Source: Micropruina sonneratiae
Lineage (GTDB): Bacteria; Actinomycetota; Actinomycetes; Propionibacteriales; Propionibacteriaceae
NCBI RefSeq assembly: GCF_025972045.1
Contig: NZ_JAPDHX010000001.1
Coordinates: 209,181-273,180 of the forward strand
Length of the DNA: 64,000 nt
Reading direction: 5' to 3'
In this document: positions 1 through 9,007 of the stretch, in pieces
Position numbering within the stretch: the stretch's first letter is position 1
Layout of the letters: the number at the start of each line of letters is the position of its first letter
Made by a program: the position numbers and the translations under genes
Notes under the pieces: generated by a model
Database searches by the model: none
Seen by the model: only the letters and a program-made list of their open reading frames with translations
What the model was told of the DNA's origin: nothing

Positions 1-1011
1 ATAGCGGGAGACGGGACGGGCCACGTCGTGGTTGCCCAGCACCCAGGTCGGCGGGGCGCCGACGGATGCGTGCGAGTCGATGGTCCGGTCGATCACCGCC
101 CGGAGGTCGCCGGGCAGCCATGGCGCGGTCAGGAAGTCGAAGTTGAACGCGGTGTGCAGTTCGTCGGGCCGCAGGTACGCCACCAGCCGATGTGCCCGGC
201 CGACCCAGATCTCGCCGCAGAACGCCCGGGACGGGCTGTACTCGTCGGCCACCGTGCGCCACTCGCGGAAGATGTCGTGCACCCTCGGCTGGTCCCAGTG
301 CGGGTGGTCGTGCTCGGCGTCGTCCTCGAGCGGGAACTCCAGGCCGTTGAGGTCGGGCAGCGCCCAGTCCTTCTCCAGCCCGTGCGCGACGTCGATCCGG
401 AAGCCGTCGATCCCCCGGTCGAACCAGAACCGCAGGCTGGTCTCGAACTCGGCCCTGATCGCCGGACTGCGCCAGTTCACGTCCGGCTGCTCGGGGGTGA
501 ACAGGTGCAGATACCACTGGCCGTCGGCGACGCGCGTCCAGGCCGGACCGCCGAACGTGCTCTGCCAGTCGTTCGGCGGCAGTTCGCCGCCGGCGCCGCG
601 GCCGTCGCGGAAGATGAACAGGTCGCGCTCCGGCGAGCCCGGACCCGCGGCGAGGGCCCGCTGGAACAGCACGTGCTGGTCGGAGGTGTGGTTCGGGACG
701 ATGTCAATGATCACCTTGATGCCGGCTTCGTGGGCCTCGGCGATCAGGGCGTCGGCCTCGGCCAGGGTGCCGAAGACAGGCTCGATGTCGCGGTAGTCGC
801 TGACGTCGTAGCCGGCGTCCTTCATCGGTGAGGGGTACCACGGGCTGATCCAGATGGCGTCGACGCCCAGCGCCGCCAGGTGGGGAAGCTTCGACCGGAT
901 GCCGGCGACATCGCCCACCCCGTCACCGTCGGCGTCGGCGAAGCTGCGCGGATACACCTGATACACCACCGCGTGCCGCCACCAGTCGTCGTCTGCGTTC
1001 CGACCCTGCAT
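1..1011 (-). CDS. GH13 alpha-glucosidase (partial, C-terminus outside window)
   Basis: The first 337 residues of a glycoside hydrolase family 13 enzyme that cleaves alpha-glucosidic bonds in short oligosaccharides, probably in the cytoplasm because no signal peptide is visible. The barrel begins at VVYQVYPRSF near residue 15. Region I (DIVPNHTS) places His108. Region II (GFRIDVAHG) supplies the nucleophile Asp207, region III (GEIWV) the acid/base Glu267, and region IV (LGNHD) Asp329, so all catalytic residues are present. The ATG at 1011 follows a purine-rich AAGGGG. It is divergent from a LacI-type regulator and shares its operator, so it is probably induced by its sugar. The exact substrate (maltose, isomaltose or trehalose type) cannot be told. 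Confidence 0.93.
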   Translation of the reverse strand, partial: MQGRNADDDWWRHAVVYQVYPRSFADADGDGVGDVAGIRSKLPHLAALGVDAIWISPWYPSPMKDAGYDVSDYRDIEPVFGTLAEADALIAEAHEAGIKVIIDIVPNHTSDQHVLFQRALAAGPGSPERDLFIFRDGRGAGGELPPNDWQSTFGGPAWTRVADGQWYLHLFTPEQPDVNWRSPAIRAEFETSLRFWFDRGIDGFRIDVAHGLEKDWALPDLNGLEFPLEDDAEHDHPHWDQPRVHDIFREWRTVADEYSPSRAFCGEIWVGRAHRLVAYLRPDELHTAFNFDFLTAPWLPGDLRAVIDRTIDSHASVGAPPTWVLGNHDVARPVSRY

Positions 1012-1050: not shown

Positions 1051-1111
1051 TATCGTCGCGGTAGCAGCAGCGCAAGTCCCGCGGAGAGCTCGATCACAGG
1101 AGGGGGTGCCG

Positions 1112-2119
1112 GTGCCTAAGGTGACCCTGCAGTCCATCGCCGCCCGGCTGGGCGTCAGCCGGATGACGGTCTCGAACGCCTTCTCGCGCCCCGACCAGCT
1201 GTCGGCGCAACTGCGCGAGCGCATCCTGGCCGAGGCGGCGCAACTGGGCTACACGGGCCCCGACCCGGCCGCCCGCTCGCTGGCCCGCGGGACGTCGGGA
1301 GCGATCGGCGTGCTCTGGACGGAACCGTTGCGCCTCGCCCTCTCGGACGCCGTCACCGCCGGTTTCCTGGGCGCCCTTGCCGACGAGCTGAGCGGCGACG
1401 GACTGGCCCTGACCCTGCTGCCACCCACCGTGCCCGCCCACGACATCGCCATGGACGGCGCAATCGCCTACTCATCCCCCCTGGACTCGCCCAGCATGCG
1501 CTGGCTGCGCCGGCGCAGGGTGCCGGTCGTCGGAGTCGACATGGCTTGGCCGGACGGCCCGTCGGTGACCATCCACGACCGCGAGGGGGCCAGGGACGCC
1601 GCCGCCCACCTGCTGGGGCTCGGCCATCGCCGCATCGCCGTCCTCACCCAGGCCGGCGGGGGCGATGCGGGACCGGGAGAACGCGTCGCCGGCTGGCTGG
1701 AGGGGCTCGGCGGGATCAAGCCGGTGGTGAGCCTCGTCCACGTCTATGCCGACAACCGGGCCGTGATCGTCGACCTGCTCCGCCGGGTCAGGCCCACGGC
1801 CGTGCTGTGCCTGACCGACCTGGTCGCGGCCCAGGTGCTGGCCGTCGCCGCCGAACTGGAACTCAGCGTGCCCGGCGAGTTGTCGGTGATCGGCTTCGAC
1901 GACCATCCGATCGCGGCCGGGCTCGGCCTGACCACGGTCGCGCAGGACGTGGACGCCAAGGGCCGGGCCGCCGCCCAGCTCATGCGCGACCTGCTGGCGA
2001 GGGAGGCCGGCTCGGAGGCCGAGCCGCCGGCCGGGGTCCGGCTCGGCGTCGAGCTGGTGCTGCGCGGCAGCACCGGCCCCGCCCCCTCGACCACGGGGGC
2101 TGTCCGGGGCCGCTACTAG
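1112..2119 (+). CDS. LacI-family transcriptional repressor
   Basis: A sugar-responsive DNA-binding repressor. The N-terminal helix-turn-helix (VTLQSIAARLGVSRMTVSNAF, described here by its ends) occupies about residues 3-27 and is followed by a periplasmic-binding-protein-like effector domain. The C-terminal part has the usual VIGFDDHPIA stretch. GTG at 1112 is preferred over the in-frame GTG at 1106 because AGGAGG (1098-1103) lies 8 bases before 1112 but only 2 before 1106. That gives about 335 residues, normal for the family. The divergent GH13 gene and the double operator between them make it the likely local regulator of alpha-glucoside use. Confidence 0.93.
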   Translation: MPKVTLQSIAARLGVSRMTVSNAFSRPDQLSAQLRERILAEAAQLGYTGPDPAARSLARGTSGAIGVLWTEPLRLALSDAVTAGFLGALADELSGDGLALTLLPPTVPAHDIAMDGAIAYSSPLDSPSMRWLRRRRVPVVGVDMAWPDGPSVTIHDREGARDAAAHLLGLGHRRIAVLTQAGGGDAGPGERVAGWLEGLGGIKPVVSLVHVYADNRAVIVDLLRRVRPTAVLCLTDLVAAQVLAVAAELELSVPGELSVIGFDDHPIAAGLGLTTVAQDVDAKGRAAAQLMRDLLAREAGSEAEPPAGVRLGVELVLRGSTGPAPSTTGAVRGRY

Positions 2120-2122
2120 CAT
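2117..2122 (+). promoter_or_regulatory. -10 element (TAGCAT), leaderless start
   Basis: TAGCAT lies 6 bases before the ATG at 2129, so transcription would start on or next to the start codon. Its TAG is also the stop codon of the preceding LacI-type gene. No Shine-Dalgarno sequence precedes the ATG. Confidence 0.6.
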
Positions 2123-2128
2123 GCGGCC

Positions 2129-3772
2129 ATGCCCACACCGCAGCCCGGACGTCGCAGCCGTTGGCTGATCGTCGTCATCGTGACGGTGGTCGTGGCCGTC
2201 GGGGGCGGCTTCCTCGCCTGGCGCGCGGTGACAGACCCGCTACCCGCCGCCACCGCCGCGGCGCAGCGGGCGGCCGACGCGTTGGCCGCCCGGTCGATCG
2301 GTGACGGCTCGTTCGGTTCCAGCGTGGGCCCTGCCGAGCTCGACGACCTGGCTGCGACACTGCGCGGCATGGGCACGCTGCGGCCCACCGTCACCGTCGA
2401 GTCGGTGCAACTGCGCGACGACGGACGCGAGGGCACCGCACGGCTGCGCGCCGAATGGGTCATCCACGCCGGCAAACCGGTCTGGATCCAGGACGCCTAC
2501 CTGCGGCTGGTGCGCGGCGCGGACGGCTGGACGGGGGTGTGGGACCGTGACCTGATCGCGTCCGGACTGGCGGTGGACGACCGGCTGCGCGCCGTGCGGC
2601 TGGCACCGACCCGCGGCGAGATCCTGGGCGCCGGCGACGAGCGGCTGGTGTGGAACGCCGACGCAAAGCGGATCGGGCTGGACAAGACCCTGATCGCGGC
2701 CGACGCGCAGCCCAGGGCCGCCTCCCGGCTCGCGAAGGCGGTCGGCATCGACGTCGACGCCTACGTGGCCAAGGTCGCGGCGTACGGTCCCAAGGCCTAC
2801 GTCGAGGCGACGGTGATCCGCGCCGTCGGCAGCGCCGAGTGGCCCACGTTGACCGCGGCGCGGGCCGTCGAGGGTGTCAGGGTGTTCGACACCGTCCGCC
2901 CACTGGCGCTGTCACCGACCTTCGCCCGGCAACTGCTGGGCAGCGTCGGCGAGGCGACCGCCGACCTGATCGACCACTCCGACGGCACCATCCGGGCCGG
3001 CGACCTGGTCGGGCTGGGCGGCCTGCAGCGGGTGCACAATGCCGAGCTGATGGGGGTCACCGGGTTCGTCGTGCAGTCCTACCCGAAGGACCACCCCGAG
3101 GATCCGACCGAGCTGTTCCGGGTGGACTCGGTGCCCGGCAGTTCGCTGCGGCTGACCCTCGACGCCGGCCTGCAACAACGAGCCGAAGCCCTGGTGAATC
3201 GGTCCTCCGGCAGGTCGGCGGCGGTGCTGCTGCGACCCTCCGACGGGGCGATCCTGGCACTCGCCAGCCGTCCCGGCGCGACCACGGCCACCACTCAGCG
3301 GGTCTATCCCGACGACTTCGCGCCGGTGAGCGCCGTGGCCGGCGACGGCGACACGGCGGGTGCGCTGCGGCTGCTGGGCGTGACCGAGCCGTTCGGGCTG
3401 GGCGTGGACACCTTCGGCGCCGACCTCGAGGGCGGCACGCTGCGGCTGTCGCCGTTGTCCATGGCCGTGGCGACGGCCTCGGTGGCCCGGGGCAGCACCG
3501 TCGTGCCGGCACTGCTGGCCGACGAGACGTCGACCCAGGCCGCCGAGTCGATCACCCCGGCGCAGGCCGAACGGGCCCGCCGGGCCATGGTCGAGCGGGC
3601 CGGATCCACGGTCCTGGCCGGCCTCCGCAAGGCCACCGGCGCGAGGCTGCCGGCCGACGGCGATGGCAAGTTCTGGACCGTGGCGGTCCGCGGCGACCTG
3701 GTCGTGGTCGGCTACGACTCCGACAAGGGGTCGGTGGCCCTTACCGCTGCGCTGCTGCGCGCGGCCGGCTGA
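2129..3772 (+). CDS. Penicillin-binding-protein-like protein lacking catalytic motifs
   Basis: A 547-residue, membrane-anchored relative of class B penicillin-binding proteins. Visible order: one TM segment (about residues 12-32), an NTF2-like MecA-N domain (about 35-145), a dimerisation region with RGEILGAGDERLV, then a transpeptidase-like domain from LRLTLDAGLQQRAEALV onward. The stretch that should hold SxxK and SxN is missing: ILALASRPG runs within about 40 residues into FGLGVDTFG, and the last motif reads KATGAR instead of KTG. No active-site serine is recognisable, so it is probably a non-catalytic scaffold or regulatory homologue. The frame is open throughout, so this is not simple decay. 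Confidence 0.82.
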   Translation: MPTPQPGRRSRWLIVVIVTVVVAVGGGFLAWRAVTDPLPAATAAAQRAADALAARSIGDGSFGSSVGPAELDDLAATLRGMGTLRPTVTVESVQLRDDGREGTARLRAEWVIHAGKPVWIQDAYLRLVRGADGWTGVWDRDLIASGLAVDDRLRAVRLAPTRGEILGAGDERLVWNADAKRIGLDKTLIAADAQPRAASRLAKAVGIDVDAYVAKVAAYGPKAYVEATVIRAVGSAEWPTLTAARAVEGVRVFDTVRPLALSPTFARQLLGSVGEATADLIDHSDGTIRAGDLVGLGGLQRVHNAELMGVTGFVVQSYPKDHPEDPTELFRVDSVPGSSLRLTLDAGLQQRAEALVNRSSGRSAAVLLRPSDGAILALASRPGATTATTQRVYPDDFAPVSAVAGDGDTAGALRLLGVTEPFGLGVDTFGADLEGGTLRLSPLSMAVATASVARGSTVVPALLADETSTQAAESITPAQAERARRAMVERAGSTVLAGLRKATGARLPADGDGKFWTVAVRGDLVVVGYDSDKGSVALTAALLRAAG

Positions 3773-3786
3773 GGGTGGCGGGCTCC

Positions 3787-3792
3787 TAGACT
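3787..3792 (+). promoter_or_regulatory. -10 element (TAGACT), leaderless start
   Basis: TAGACT lies 6 bases upstream of the ATG at 3799. There is no ribosome binding site between them, fitting a leaderless transcript. Confidence 0.6.
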
Positions 3793-3798
3793 GGCGAC

Positions 3799-4242
3799 AT
3801 GCGCCGCCTCGGATGCCTCGCCGCCCTCGTCCTGCTGAGTGCCTGCTCGATGACGGGGCCCGGCCAGACAGCTGCTCCGGGAGGCACCCCCAGTCCGGGC
3901 GGCTCGCGGTTCTCGACCGCTCCGCCACTGCCCAGCGCCGGCACGCCGTCCGGGACGCCCGTGCCGTTGCCGCAGGCGCGGCTCGAGGCGATCCGCAGCG
4001 ACCTGACCGGACGCGGGGTGGCGATCGCCGATCTCGTCGTGACCAGCACCGAAGCGGTCACCTTCAACGACTCCTCGCTGGGCTGTCCCAAGCCCGGCGT
4101 CCAGTACACCCAGGCCCTCGTTCCGGGCATGCGGGTGGTGGTCCAGGCCGGCGGCCGCGACTACGACTACCGGTTCGGCCGCGGTGATACGCCGACCCTG
4201 TGCGAACAGCCGGGGCCGGGCGCCACCTCGACCACCCGCTGA
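3799..4242 (+). CDS. Putative lipoprotein
   Basis: A 147-residue secreted lipoprotein. The signal peptide MRRLGCLAALVLLSAC ends in the lipobox LLSAC, with Cys16 as the lipidated residue. A P/S/G/T-rich spacer follows, then a small folded region with DSSLGCPKPG and MRVVVQAGGRDYDYRF, ending in a second cysteine (LCEQP) that could pair with the first. Similar SLGCP-type domains occur in uncharacterised envelope proteins of several phyla. No function can be assigned. It is convergent with the subtilisin-like protease gene and separated from it by a strong hairpin. Confidence 0.85.
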   Translation: MRRLGCLAALVLLSACSMTGPGQTAAPGGTPSPGGSRFSTAPPLPSAGTPSGTPVPLPQARLEAIRSDLTGRGVAIADLVVTSTEAVTFNDSSLGCPKPGVQYTQALVPGMRVVVQAGGRDYDYRFGRGDTPTLCEQPGPGATSTTR

Positions 4243-4265
4243 CCGTCCCGACCACGGCACGAAAA

Positions 4266-4299
4266 GCCGACGCCCCCGGGAGAACCCGGGGGCGTCGGC
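4266..4299. terminator. Strong hairpin terminator between convergent genes
   Basis: A perfect 15-bp stem (GCCGACGCCCCCGGG and its complement) with an AGAA loop. On the minus strand the stem is followed by TTTTC, so it fits intrinsic termination of the protease gene best. It probably also stops readthrough from the lipoprotein gene. Confidence 0.85.
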
Positions 4300-4315
4300 G
4301 TCGTGCTCAGGACCG

Positions 4316-7300
4316 TTACGGCGTCGGCAGCGTCAGCGCCTCATCCATTCCGGCCTTGTTGTCGAGGACGACGACCATGGTGCCCAGCGGCTGCTGGTCG
4401 GCCACTGCGTCGGCGTCCACACTCACCTCGACGGTGCGGCTGCCGTTGACCGGCACGGTGGCGAATCCGCCGTTGCTGATCGAGGGCTGCCACGGGTTGT
4501 AGCTCGCCAGTCCCGGCATCTCGTCCGCTGCCGCGGAGTTCAGGATGCTGTAGCTCGCCACCCCGTAGTCGAACGTTCCCGAGTCCTCGCTGATGCCGAG
4601 GTCACTGGCGTACACCGGCAACAGGATGGTGCTGCTGTCGGTGGGGGCCTGGGCGTAGAAGCCGGCCGCGTAGGTGGCGCGGTTGGCGATGTCGTACAGG
4701 AACACCTCGGTGATCCCGTTCGGGTCGTCGGCCCGGATGATGCCGGAGTCGTAGCTGAACACGATCCAGTCCGGGTTGCCGTCGCGGTCGCTGTCGATCA
4801 GGACGTCGAACTCCTGGGTGGCAGCAGTCGACCAGCGGCTCCAGTTGTTCACCGCGAAGACCAGCAACTGGTCGTCGCCGTCGGCGAAGGACTGCACGCC
4901 CGCCGCCCGAAGGTCGAACCCGCGACCCATGGTCGAGGACACGTCCTTCTCGTCACGCAGGCCCCAGGTGTAGAAGTCGGCCGCCGCGGGCAGCGCACCG
5001 TTGGGGTTGGTCAGCTTGACGTTGACGGTGGTCGGCGCCGCCGGCTCGGTCGGCTCCGGCGTGGGCTCGGCCGTGGTCTCGCTCGGGCTCGGGCTCGGCG
5101 AGGTGGTGATCTCGGTCGGGCTCGGGCTCGGTGAGGTGGTGGTCTCGCTCGGGCTCGGGCTCGGCGAGGTGGTGGTCTCGCTCGGGCTCGGGCTGGGCGA
5201 ACCGCTCGAGCTCGGGTTCGGCTTGGGCTTGCCCCTGCCGTCGACCTTGGTCTGGACCGACTTGCCGCCGGTGATCTTCACCGTCTTCTTGCCGGTCGTC
5301 TTGGCGGTGGTGTCCACCACCGACTGGCTCGCCTCGACCATGGCCTGGGCGCGCGGCACCAGCAGGTACGGCACCCGCAGGGTGCCCTTGCCGTTGGAGC
5401 CGATCTTGATGTTGCCCGACACCTCACGCAGGTTGAACAGGTCGTCGGAACTGAGCGAGGTGCCGACGTCGGAGCCCTTCACGGTGAGCTTGACAGTGAC
5501 CTTCTTGCTGCTCTTCGCCGGCACCGTCAGCAGCTTCTTGCTGAACGTGACCTTGGCCTTGCTCGACTGGGAGGTCGCTTGGTTGGCCAGCGTGAAGATG
5601 ACCCGTTTGGAACCCTTGTTCACCAGCGTGATGGTCTTGGTGTAGCTCTTGGTGCCGCGGATGTTCTTGAACCCGAAGCTCAAGGTGGCCTCGGAGACCT
5701 TTCCGGCCGCGGTCTTGTGCTGGTCGCCGATCGCGTAGATCGAGGTGTTCACGACCTGCTTGGTGTCGACCAGTCCGCCGCCCAGGGTGAGCCGGTAACC
5801 GCTCACCTTGGCCGGATCGGCGGTGCTGACCAGAGCCGCGCTGATCGCGTTGGAGCTCCAGCCCTTGTGCGCCTGCCTGGCCAGCGCCGCGACGCCGGCG
5901 ACGTGCGGGGCCGCCATCGACGTGCCGGAGATGGTCGCCGGACCGTTGCCGGTGCCGACGCCGGTGGACACGATGCTGACGCCGGGCGCCGAGATCGACG
6001 GCTTCAGGCCGCTGTCGTTGTTGCGCGGGCCGCCAGAGCTGAACGAGGCGTACGCCTTGAAGTCCGGATTCTGCAGGTCCTTGGCGCTCAGCGTGAGGTC
6101 CGTGCCCGCGGCCGCCACCAGGGCGGCCCCGTCCGAGCTGCGGACGCCCAGGAACGGAATGGTGACCGTGTAGGCCTCACCGGTGTCGGGGTTGCTGGTG
6201 ATCTCACCCTCGACCGGCGGGTAGCTGTCCACGTTGTTGACCATGATGACCGCGTCCGCGCCGGCCTGCTGGCCGAAGATCGCCTTGGCGACCCGGGCGC
6301 AGGTGCCGCGGTTCACGATCGCGATCTGCAGCGGGGCGCTGGGGTCGGAACTGATCCCGGCGGCGGTGAACGAGGCGGTGTCGCAGCCCAGCGAGTTGGT
6401 GTTGACGATCGTGTACGGGCCTTCCGGCAGGTTGGCGCCGTTGGCGTTTACGGCGTCCATCGTGGTGCCACCGAAGCTCAGCGAGGCACCCGGGAAGGTC
6501 GCCGTGGAGTCGACCGCGGCCACGCTGACGACACCCTTGCCGGTGCCGGGCGAGCCGGTCATGTACGGGTTCGGGCCGGAGTTGCCGGCCGAGGCCACAA
6601 CCACCACGCCGGCGGCCTGGGCGTTCGTCGCCGCCACCGCGGAGGGGTCGGTCGCGTCGCCGTAGGTGGAGCCGAGGGACATGTTGATGACGTCCATGTC
6701 GTGCGCCACGGCCCAGTCGATGGCCTCGGTGGTGACGTCGGTGGAGCCCTCGCAACCGAACACCTTCAGCGCGTACAGGTCGACCTTGGGCGCGACGCCC
6801 GGGCCGATCAGGAAGTCGTTGTCGGGGGTCTTGCTGTTGTAGGGGCCCTTGTAGGTGGTGCCCTCGTCGGTCACACCGTTGCCGCCGGTGGTGCCGGCCA
6901 CGTGGCTGCCGTGCCCGTTACAGTCGAGCGGGTTGGCGTCCGGCTTCGGCAACGAACCCTCGACGCTCGCGTCGTAGTCGTCGCCGACGAAGTCGTAGCC
7001 GCCCTTGACCCGGGGGGCGTTGGGTCCGAAGTACTTCGGGTTGGGGGTGTCGCTCGCCTTGGCCTTGTCGAACGCCTGCACCGTGCCCGGGCCGGCGAAG
7101 TTGGCGTGGGTGTAGTCGATGCCGGTGTCGATGATCGCGACCTTGACGCCCTCACCGCGGTACTTGCTGCTCTGCCACACCTGCGGGACGCCGAGGAACG
7201 GCACGCTGGTGGCGTTGTTGATCGTCTGTTGCTGGATCGCCCGCACCGCCTTCACACCCGGCAGCTGGGACACCGCGCGCACCTGCTTGCGCGGCAGTTG

Positions 7301-7657
7301 GACCCGCATGCCGTTGTAGGCGGACTGCATCTGCGAGAAGACCTTGCCGCCGCGTCCGGTAATCTCCTTCTTGACCCGATCCTGGGACTTCTTCAGTCCG
7401 CTGCGGATCTGGGTGACGCGGCTCGCGGAGAGCTTCTCACCGGTCTGGCCCTCGACGACGGCGACGGGGTCGCCGGTCAGTTCGACCATGACGGTGACCT
7501 TCGCGTCGGAGTCGAGGTAGGACGGGGTGAACTTCGTGTCGAGCTTCGACGACGAGGGTGCCTCGTCGAAGCGGTCGACGCCGGTATCGGCGTAGGCGAC
7601 TGTCGGGACTGCCAGGGCAAATGCGCCCGTGGCTATCAGGAGTTTCCGGCGTAGCAA
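4316..7657 (-). CDS. Secreted S8 (subtilisin-like) serine protease
   Basis: A 1113-residue extracellular protease. Order: signal peptide (about 1-23, ending AYADTG); I9-type propeptide (about 50-145); S8 domain with Asp177 (IIDTGIDYTHAN), His249 (NGHGSHVAG), oxyanion Asn359 (SAGNSG) and Ser580 (SGTSMAAPHVAG). A protease-associated domain is inserted at about 415-530. An Fn3-like region (about 650-790), an S/P/T-rich repeat linker and a C-terminal beta domain follow. No LPXTG or S-layer motif is seen. The start is TTG at 7657, preceded by AAAGG; no ATG or GTG is available in frame nearby. It probably supplies peptides from outside protein. Confidence 0.93.
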   Translation of the reverse strand: MLRRKLLIATGAFALAVPTVAYADTGVDRFDEAPSSSKLDTKFTPSYLDSDAKVTVMVELTGDPVAVVEGQTGEKLSASRVTQIRSGLKKSQDRVKKEITGRGGKVFSQMQSAYNGMRVQLPRKQVRAVSQLPGVKAVRAIQQQTINNATSVPFLGVPQVWQSSKYRGEGVKVAIIDTGIDYTHANFAGPGTVQAFDKAKASDTPNPKYFGPNAPRVKGGYDFVGDDYDASVEGSLPKPDANPLDCNGHGSHVAGTTGGNGVTDEGTTYKGPYNSKTPDNDFLIGPGVAPKVDLYALKVFGCEGSTDVTTEAIDWAVAHDMDVINMSLGSTYGDATDPSAVAATNAQAAGVVVVASAGNSGPNPYMTGSPGTGKGVVSVAAVDSTATFPGASLSFGGTTMDAVNANGANLPEGPYTIVNTNSLGCDTASFTAAGISSDPSAPLQIAIVNRGTCARVAKAIFGQQAGADAVIMVNNVDSYPPVEGEITSNPDTGEAYTVTIPFLGVRSSDGAALVAAAGTDLTLSAKDLQNPDFKAYASFSSGGPRNNDSGLKPSISAPGVSIVSTGVGTGNGPATISGTSMAAPHVAGVAALARQAHKGWSSNAISAALVSTADPAKVSGYRLTLGGGLVDTKQVVNTSIYAIGDQHKTAAGKVSEATLSFGFKNIRGTKSYTKTITLVNKGSKRVIFTLANQATSQSSKAKVTFSKKLLTVPAKSSKKVTVKLTVKGSDVGTSLSSDDLFNLREVSGNIKIGSNGKGTLRVPYLLVPRAQAMVEASQSVVDTTAKTTGKKTVKITGGKSVQTKVDGRGKPKPNPSSSGSPSPSPSETTTSPSPSPSETTTSPSPSPTEITTSPSPSPSETTAEPTPEPTEPAAPTTVNVKLTNPNGALPAAADFYTWGLRDEKDVSSTMGRGFDLRAAGVQSFADGDDQLLVFAVNNWSRWSTAATQEFDVLIDSDRDGNPDWIVFSYDSGIIRADDPNGITEVFLYDIANRATYAAGFYAQAPTDSSTILLPVYASDLGISEDSGTFDYGVASYSILNSAAADEMPGLASYNPWQPSISNGGFATVPVNGSRTVEVSVDADAVADQQPLGTMVVVLDNKAGMDEALTLPTP
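5073..5201 (-). repeat. 33-bp tandem repeats coding for SPSPSPSETTT
   Basis: Four adjacent units (5073-5102, 5103-5135, 5136-5168, 5169-5201), three of 33 bp and one of 30 bp, almost identical. They encode 11-residue repeats of Ser-Pro and Thr in the linker of the protease. Such in-frame repeats can change copy number without breaking the gene. Confidence 0.9.
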
Positions 7658-7805: not shown

Positions 7806-8870
7806 TTACTCAGCTGTGACCTGCGGCGGGTCCGCGGCGGGCGGCTCGATGGCCAGCTCCATGCCGGCGACGGCATGGCTGAGGCCCCGGTGGTCGCGTG
7901 ACCAGATCGCCCACCCGACGGTGAGTGCTCCGAAGACGACACTGAGTGCGCCGAAGTAGGGCACGGGCAGGCTGAGCACCACGTAGCCCCCGACGCCGGC
8001 CAGCAGCTTCAGCACGCGGCTGCGCGTCTCGGCGCCGGGCCGGGCGCGCGGTTCGAGGCCGACCATCGTCTCGCCGATGGTGCGGCCACGCGCCAACACC
8101 GACCAGCCCTCGACGAGCAGCGGGACACCGGTGGACAGCACGATGTCGACCCACTGCGGCAGTTGCTCGGTCGGCCACTGCAGCAGGTACAGGGCGACCA
8201 CCCGCCACGCGATCGTCAGGACGCCGCCGACGGTGCCGATCACCAGCAGGTCGGCGAGCAGGCCGATCAGCCGGCGCCCCAGCGTGACCCTGGTCGTTCG
8301 AGGGGGCGGACGTCGTCGGCTGCTGAGCCGTTGCAGCGGAATGGCGAGCACCGAGCCGAGCAGTGCGCCGGTGGTGTTCACCAGCATGTCGTCGACGTCG
8401 AACACCCGGTACGCGCAGTGATAGAGCCCCCACACGCCGGTGAGCTGGGTGAATTCGATCAGCGCGGAACCGCCGAGGCCGACCAGGGCCGCCACGACGA
8501 TCCCACGGCCCAGCAGCAGTCGCAGGAACACCCCAAGAGGGACGAAGAGCACGACGTTCAGCGCGACCTGCAGGAACGCCCGATTGTGCAGCAGGTTCCG
8601 ACCGCCGGCGGCGATGTCGGCGAGGAACGCGAGGGGGTGCAGGTTGTGACCGACGCAGCGGAAGCCGTCGTTCTCGGGAATCGGCACCAGCGTGTACGAC
8701 CACATCGCCACCGCGTAGACGGCGACCGCCAGCAGCATCGCCATGTCGGCCGGCCGGAACCTTCCGGCCCGGCGGTAACGTGCGGCGGCGACCGGGACGA
8801 AGGCCACGATGGCGAGCAGACCGCCCAGCACCAGGGCGGTCAAGGTGCTGGGTCCGAACGGGCTCAGCAT
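7806..8870 (-). CDS. VanZ-like and RDD-domain membrane protein
   Basis: A 354-residue polytopic membrane protein of unknown function. The N-terminal half is VanZ-like: TM segments from about residue 8, a conserved TLVPIPE-type loop, and a later segment with EFTQL and FDVDDMLVNTTGALLG, which is the family signature. The C-terminal part is an RDD domain (LIGLLADLLVIGTVGG). ATG at 8870 is chosen because AGGAGG lies 9 bases upstream; the ATG at 8891 has none. A TAGACT -10 candidate is at 8912-8907 on the minus strand. VanZ proteins are linked to glycopeptide tolerance in Gram-positives, but no resistance genes are nearby, so no phenotype is inferred. Confidence 0.85.
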   Translation of the reverse strand: MLSPFGPSTLTALVLGGLLAIVAFVPVAAARYRRAGRFRPADMAMLLAVAVYAVAMWSYTLVPIPENDGFRCVGHNLHPLAFLADIAAGGRNLLHNRAFLQVALNVVLFVPLGVFLRLLLGRGIVVAALVGLGGSALIEFTQLTGVWGLYHCAYRVFDVDDMLVNTTGALLGSVLAIPLQRLSSRRRPPPRTTRVTLGRRLIGLLADLLVIGTVGGVLTIAWRVVALYLLQWPTEQLPQWVDIVLSTGVPLLVEGWSVLARGRTIGETMVGLEPRARPGAETRSRVLKLLAGVGGYVVLSLPVPYFGALSVVFGALTVGWAIWSRDHRGLSHAVAGMELAIEPPAADPPQVTAE

Positions 8871-9007
8871 GGGGTCGTTCCTCCTGGGCATCCGGGGTGG
8901 CGGGACAGTCTAGGCGCCGGGTGCGGGCGACGTCGCGCCGGGCCCGGTGCGGGCCGCCTCGGCAGGACGTGGTGCAATTGACCCGTCCGTAGATCCGATG
9001 GGAGCCC

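Follow-up and report, generated by a model that had tools for sequence, protein, structure and literature searches.

A class B penicillin-binding protein homologue without catalytic motifs, probably kept for a non-enzymatic role in Micropruina

The window, i.e. the whole stretch of 64,000 nucleotides that was analysed, comes from the 3.5 Mb genome of the actinomycete Micropruina sonneratiae, whose genus NCBI places in the Nocardioidaceae. Near its start lies a gene for a class B penicillin-binding protein (PBP) homologue without catalytic motifs, hereafter the pseudo-PBP, in a compact neighbourhood of a LacI-family regulator, a putative lipoprotein and an S8 protease (Table 1). This order of genes (LacI, pseudo-PBP, lipoprotein, then S8 protease) is found in all five Micropruina species carrying the lesion described below, the contig of one of them (G001) stopping inside the LacI gene. 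The lipoprotein gave no Pfam or NCBIfam match; it carries the signature 'DSSLGCPKPGVQYTQAL', and in related genera its location close to PBP, GH13 and S8 genes is conserved. At positions 7806-8891 of the window, beside the S8 protease, we noted a membrane protein that has a VanZ domain and is extended at its C-terminus.

Table 1. Position of the pseudo-PBP gene, its predicted parts and its neighbours in the window.
Feature	Positions	Strand	Basis or remark
GH13 enzyme (alpha-amylase family), truncated at the start of the window	1..1011	-	divergent from LacI gene
LacI-family regulator	1106..2119	+	ends 9 bp before the pseudo-PBP gene; order same in sister species
Pseudo-PBP gene (homologous to class B PBPs, catalytic motifs lost)	2129..3772	+	547 aa, frame intact
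Single N-terminal membrane anchor WLIVVIVTVVVAVGGGFLAWRAV, without lipobox	2162..2230	+	hydropathy; residues 12-34
Likely MecA_N/NTF2-like region, borders approximate	2237..2578	+	weak Pfam MecA_N in relatives; PBP2a alignment
PBP_dimer (pedestal) domain, intact; now the most conserved part	2603..3070	+	Pfam, conservation comparison
Transpeptidase-domain remnant (presumed beta1-beta2 hairpin, some helices, beta4-beta5, C-terminal helix)	3125..3769	+	alignment to intact orthologues
Place of the SxxK box, substituted to DDFA	3311..3322	+	alignment-dependent
Junction of the ~57-60-residue deletion that had carried SxN	3338..3349	+	alignment with intact orthologues
KATG, not homologous to the KTG box	3629..3640	+	residues 501-504
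147-aa putative lipoprotein (LLSAC)	3799..4242	+	26 bp downstream of the pseudo-PBP gene
S8 (subtilase) protease with PA domain	4316..7657	-	flanks the cluster in lesion-bearing species

Pfam matched the dimerisation domain with confidence (PBP_dimer, PF03717, E=1.7e-10, 42 bits at a cut-off of 24.4, residues 159-314), and the transpeptidase match (residues 436-494) stayed below the cut-off (13.5 bits vs 22.1). Searches of the PDB returned class B PBPs (PBP3, Enterococcus PBP5/4 and MecA/PBP2a) that align to about residue 385 and no further, which we take to be the place where the active site would start. The names of the secondary structure elements in the remnant are likewise ours, assigned from the established PBP fold. 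A first reading made from the sequence alone had the MecA-N, dimerisation and terminal parts preserved; this holds for PBP_dimer, and the N-terminal region is the less certain part. Pfam found no MecA_N match in the pseudo-PBP itself, two of seven close family members matched weakly (best E 0.0026) and the alignment to PBP2a begins at about residue 84, so that a MecA_N/NTF2-like identity is likely and moderately supported. Structure prediction from two sequences reached a pLDDT of 36, and the model was too poor to be used.

Alignment with many intact relatives agrees with the sequence-only reading that this is a class B PBP homologue with an intact frame whose active site is lost, and it redraws the lesion in two respects. 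The SxN motif is indeed gone, deleted with about 57-60 residues directly after the place of the SxxK box. The SxxK motif, thought to lie in the same deletion, was probably substituted: SSFK of the intact congener G002 corresponds to DDFA (Ser to Asp, Lys to Ala) and the sister species read ADFA, DDFA, KSFP or DAFA at this position, all of these assignments being alignment-dependent. About 14 further residues (the 'GxVP...AASMIGQG' segment), ahead of the 'LSPL' helix, are also missing, as is the KTG strand, the loss around which is larger in G001 and G005 than in the other lesion-bearing species. Nor is KATG a mutated KTG box, as had been proposed: it aligns with KMPG or RLPG in the sister species and, in the intact proteins, with a VPG that precedes KTG, and the KTG column falls on 'DG-', so that the resemblance is a coincidence. 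The three motif places thus read DDFA, a gap and DG-, none of which corresponds to SxxK, SxN or K[TS]G, and as judged from the alignment all three catalytic motifs of the transpeptidase domain are lost. From what we know of the PBP fold, the lesion presumably takes away the larger part of the helical lobe together with the edge strand of the cleft that holds the active site; what would be left are beta1-beta2, beta4-beta5 and the terminal helix. Because the nucleophile, the general base, SxN and KTG are all lost, it is near certain that the protein would support neither acylation by beta-lactams nor transpeptidation.

The lesion is present in five out of six Micropruina genomes (the window's own, G001, G003, G004 and G005), the other four proteins matching that of the window over the full length at 61-69% identity. 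An assembly or frameshift artefact in one genome, conceivable since several congeners are draft or metagenome assemblies, is thereby refuted: the five genomes are separate and include the one-contig G005 as well as the 100%-complete genome of the window. The sixth congener, G002, has an intact orthologue with SSFK, SCN and KTG that is 47% identical to the pseudo-PBP over residues 8-389; this identity, a common neighbour gene and the position in the tree mark the pseudo-PBP as an orthologue of the intact family members. In a tree of the N-terminal part the five lesion-bearing proteins split from G002 and the outgroups with 100% support, and in a second, wider tree the node of the five shows lower support after midpoint rooting. 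These data are consistent with one ancestral event, shared by close relatives, and the loss is not the decay of a single strain among motif-bearing ones: one congener retains the motifs and five species share the loss. Among 199 genomes of the family, full-length matches with short frames were found only in Micropruina. A transpeptidase-domain search detected no redundant intact paralogue elsewhere in the genome of the window, and a replacement by such a paralogue was rejected, the domain occurring only in FtsI, PbpA and two class A PBPs. All complete lesion-bearing genomes encode four intact PF00905 proteins; in that of the window these are an FtsI-like protein, a PbpA-like protein and the two class A PBPs. 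G002 encodes five, the fifth being the intact orthologue.

Across the five species, omega for the whole pseudo-PBP gene was 0.18, with about 0.16, 0.16 and 0.20 for the N-terminal part, the dimerisation domain and the transpeptidase remnant (codon model MG+F3X4 on five or fewer sequences, for which synonymous saturation is probable). Omega=1 was rejected for the whole gene and for each of these parts (2ΔlnL of 482, 132, 198 and 151, respectively). FtsI and PbpA of the same genomes gave 0.16 and 0.12, and active orthologues of a related genus 0.064-0.079; since the values of the pseudo-PBP are about 2-3 times higher than the latter, constraint is relaxed. Purifying selection on every domain is thus real and weaker than on the active enzyme. 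The distribution of conservation is inverted: active orthologues score 0.61 in the transpeptidase, 0.57 in the dimerisation and 0.40 in the N-terminal domain, the five pseudo-PBPs 0.55, 0.70 and 0.67, indicating that constraint has shifted from the catalytic domain to the N-terminal and dimerisation domains. The catalytic residues are lost and purifying selection acts across species, as in a pseudoenzyme; the maintenance that the sequence-only reading had suspected is borne out by this selection, by the five species that carry the deletion and by the recurrence of the loss in other lineages.

Slow erosion of a dispensable enzyme whose frame merely happens to be still open might produce a similar picture. 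The gene is dispensable in the family (a homologue in 138 of 199 genomes, no match in 61), the transpeptidase remnant evolves faster and is still shrinking, as the further loss of the KTG region in G001 and G005 illustrates, and the related gene of G634 is truncated. We nevertheless regard such decay as very unlikely, because omega lies well under 1 in every domain, the remnant among them, the five frames are open at about 60% identity, the indels that followed the founding deletion (at least 10) are all in phase and the same pattern is maintained in three other clades. In a neutral, substitution-only simulation with 400 runs per setting, no run ended with all five frames open.

These other clades came from a class-wide sample of 396 genomes, 100 of which contain a homologue, screened by frame length (<600 aa); full-length copies with dead motifs are undercounted by such a screen. 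Three of the 100 had shorter frames: the gene of the window, a second copy in G604 and a gene in G406, the latter two lacking the motifs and carrying a deletion at the same place as in Micropruina. Homologue searches in the families of G604 and G406, with the motifs then read gene by gene, brought up further dead copies. In genus g152, to which G604 belongs, five species have a deleted copy (TGFE, TGFQ or SSFL, no SxN, AAG or AEG) and a sixth, G684, has a full-length copy reading SAFQ, SCD and KNG. The dead copy adjoins an intact one in G604, G637, G704 and G684, and the intact copy lies elsewhere in G662 and G736; these pairs, together with the intermediate of G684, possibly represent a series of duplication followed by loss. 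The tandem of G604 occupies positions 1521-3623 and 3685-5451 of locus L095, one gene being active and one dead, and further loci with such pairs are L159-L161. Genus g111 has dead genes in G406, G763, G761 and G782, an eroded one in G785 and, separately, those of G774 and G777 (ATFT, no SxN, no KTG); no intact copy was detected by the family search in the genomes with dead g111 copies. G774 and G777 (loci L157 and L158) are closely related, comparatively small genomes of 2.4-2.6 Mb in which the short motif-less PBP has 553 aa. The motifs of 18 dead genes in total were compared with about 100 rows having all three motifs (some of them duplicates). In the tree, the dead proteins form separate clades interleaved with intact proteins, which implies at least four losses: besides Micropruina, three or more other actinomycete clades lost the active site independently and at an equivalent position of the fold. 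Omega for the N-terminal, dimerisation and transpeptidase parts was 0.13, 0.10 and 0.24 in the dead g152 copies vs 0.10, 0.10 and 0.095 in the active ones, and 0.15, 0.09 and 0.25 in the dead g111 genes; G785 (453 aa, more eroded) and G634, whose frame is truncated, were excluded from the selection tests, and the genomes compared are partly drafts. The frame of the related PBP in G634 (L113) breaks before KTG, by true truncation or by assembly error. The dead proteins of g152 carry a lipobox (LAGC or LSAC), and the others have a membrane helix.

The neighbourhood suggests a different use of the protein, namely as a sensor or envelope protein of a sugar-regulated LacI/GH13 cluster, in which the PBP shell would have been repurposed for a carbohydrate or storage role together with the lipoprotein. 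The lipoprotein gene adjoins the PBP gene in each of the five species with the lesion and also in G002, the congener with the intact protein, where the orientation differs and LacI and GH13 do not flank the pair. Neither G002 nor the two g12 genomes searched have a close LacI orthologue, so that the linkage of LacI and PBP looks new, as if it had arisen together with the dead form. The tight order of LacI, pseudo-PBP and lipoprotein in the lesion-bearing species, where 9-26 bp separate the genes, and the location of the intact G002 gene elsewhere, away from LacI and GH13, would fit such a recruitment. It is nonetheless unlikely, given that no such lipoprotein accompanies the pseudo-PBPs of the other clades and that we saw no carbohydrate-binding feature. 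The lipoprotein as a constant partner of dead PBPs was rejected outside Micropruina from the few kb around the other dead genes.

With its PBP ancestry and the part of the alpha/beta subdomain that is left, the remnant might also bind peptidoglycan, its precursors or beta-lactams, and binding to precursors was one of two roles originally suggested. We consider this quite unlikely: in known PBPs the cleft is formed by the lobe between SxxK and the LGL helix, by SxN and by the KTG strand, all of which the pseudo-PBP has lost, and the remnant is its least conserved part. Since the missing lobe and KTG strand make up the peptide-binding cleft, binding of precursors in particular is disfavoured. 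The second suggested role, binding to real PBPs or to other synthesis partners, is compatible with the present location of conservation.

We therefore favour, with a probability of roughly 0.6, the joint reading that the dead protein, a class B PBP of the MecA_N/PBP-lipo type, arose from an active transpeptidase in the ancestor of the five Micropruina species and is retained by selection because of a role other than catalysis. Class B PBPs are held in synthesis complexes by their anchor, NTF2-like and pedestal domains, and because constraint has moved to these, a scaffold, competitor or regulator is the simplest reading. The pseudo-PBP would then be a membrane-anchored scaffold or regulator of cell-wall synthesis, as partner or competitor. 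Its anchor and pedestal would dock on the synthesis complexes that remain (FtsI and PbpA with their SEDS partners, or class A PBPs), and the trimmed C-terminal domain may serve as a structural cap. Selection evidently acts on the remaining parts; from their identity we infer its target and a mechanism through partners.

More tentatively, and with slightly less than even odds, MecA_N/PBP-lipo-type PBPs may in general have a selectable non-catalytic function residing in anchor, NTF2-like region and pedestal, so that the catalytic site was repeatedly discarded and the shell kept, either upon replacement of the enzyme or after a duplication that left one active and one dead copy. If true, natural class B pseudo-PBPs that regulate cell-wall synthesis would form a class that has arisen repeatedly. 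Roles of class B PBPs beyond cross-linking have so far been studied mostly with engineered dead alleles, and we found no naturally dead class B PBP in the open literature, where absence is no proof. The clades described here, at least four, are natural experiments in which the protein is kept without its active site, one of them with an active sister copy and an intermediate; they point to anchor, NTF2-like region and pedestal as the seat of an independent function and offer material for finding the partner.

The pseudo-PBP shares its domain order (anchor, likely NTF2-like region, PBP_dimer, transpeptidase) with MecA_N-type PBPs such as S. aureus PBP2a/MecA, Enterococcus PBP5 and B. subtilis PBP 3 and with PBP-lipo (Rv2864c / MAB_3167c), the mycobacterial protein that we count among the MecA_N-type class B PBPs; by sequence profile it resembles MecA/PBP5. 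Unlike PBP2a and M. abscessus PBP-lipo, which are catalytic, it lacks the three motifs and the lobe between them. PBP-lipo of M. abscessus, a near precedent in function, needs its catalytic serine, the S364A mutant giving no rescue, and Mtb and Msm lose PBP-lipo without a growth defect (PMC9170245); by analogy, the serine requirement would speak against a simple transfer of a non-catalytic role. The structural role of B. subtilis PBP 2B does not depend on catalysis, and the inactive form of this protein supports assembly of the division complex (PMC5656894). The S309A mutant of PBP 2B resembles our reading of the pseudo-PBP in that presence, not activity, counts, with the difference that it is an active enzyme into which a point mutation was engineered, whereas the loss in Micropruina is natural, larger and fixed in clades. 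In S. aureus PBP1, enzymatic and non-enzymatic roles are distinct, and the protein as such regulates division (PMC9426605); it uses PASTA domains, which the pseudo-PBP lacks, and retains its catalytic site. Among bacterial pseudoenzymes, pseudokinases (PMC12599244) and pseudo-orthocaspases (PMC6426788) are like the pseudo-PBP in that the fold is retained, the catalytic residues are lost and the protein is conserved across species.
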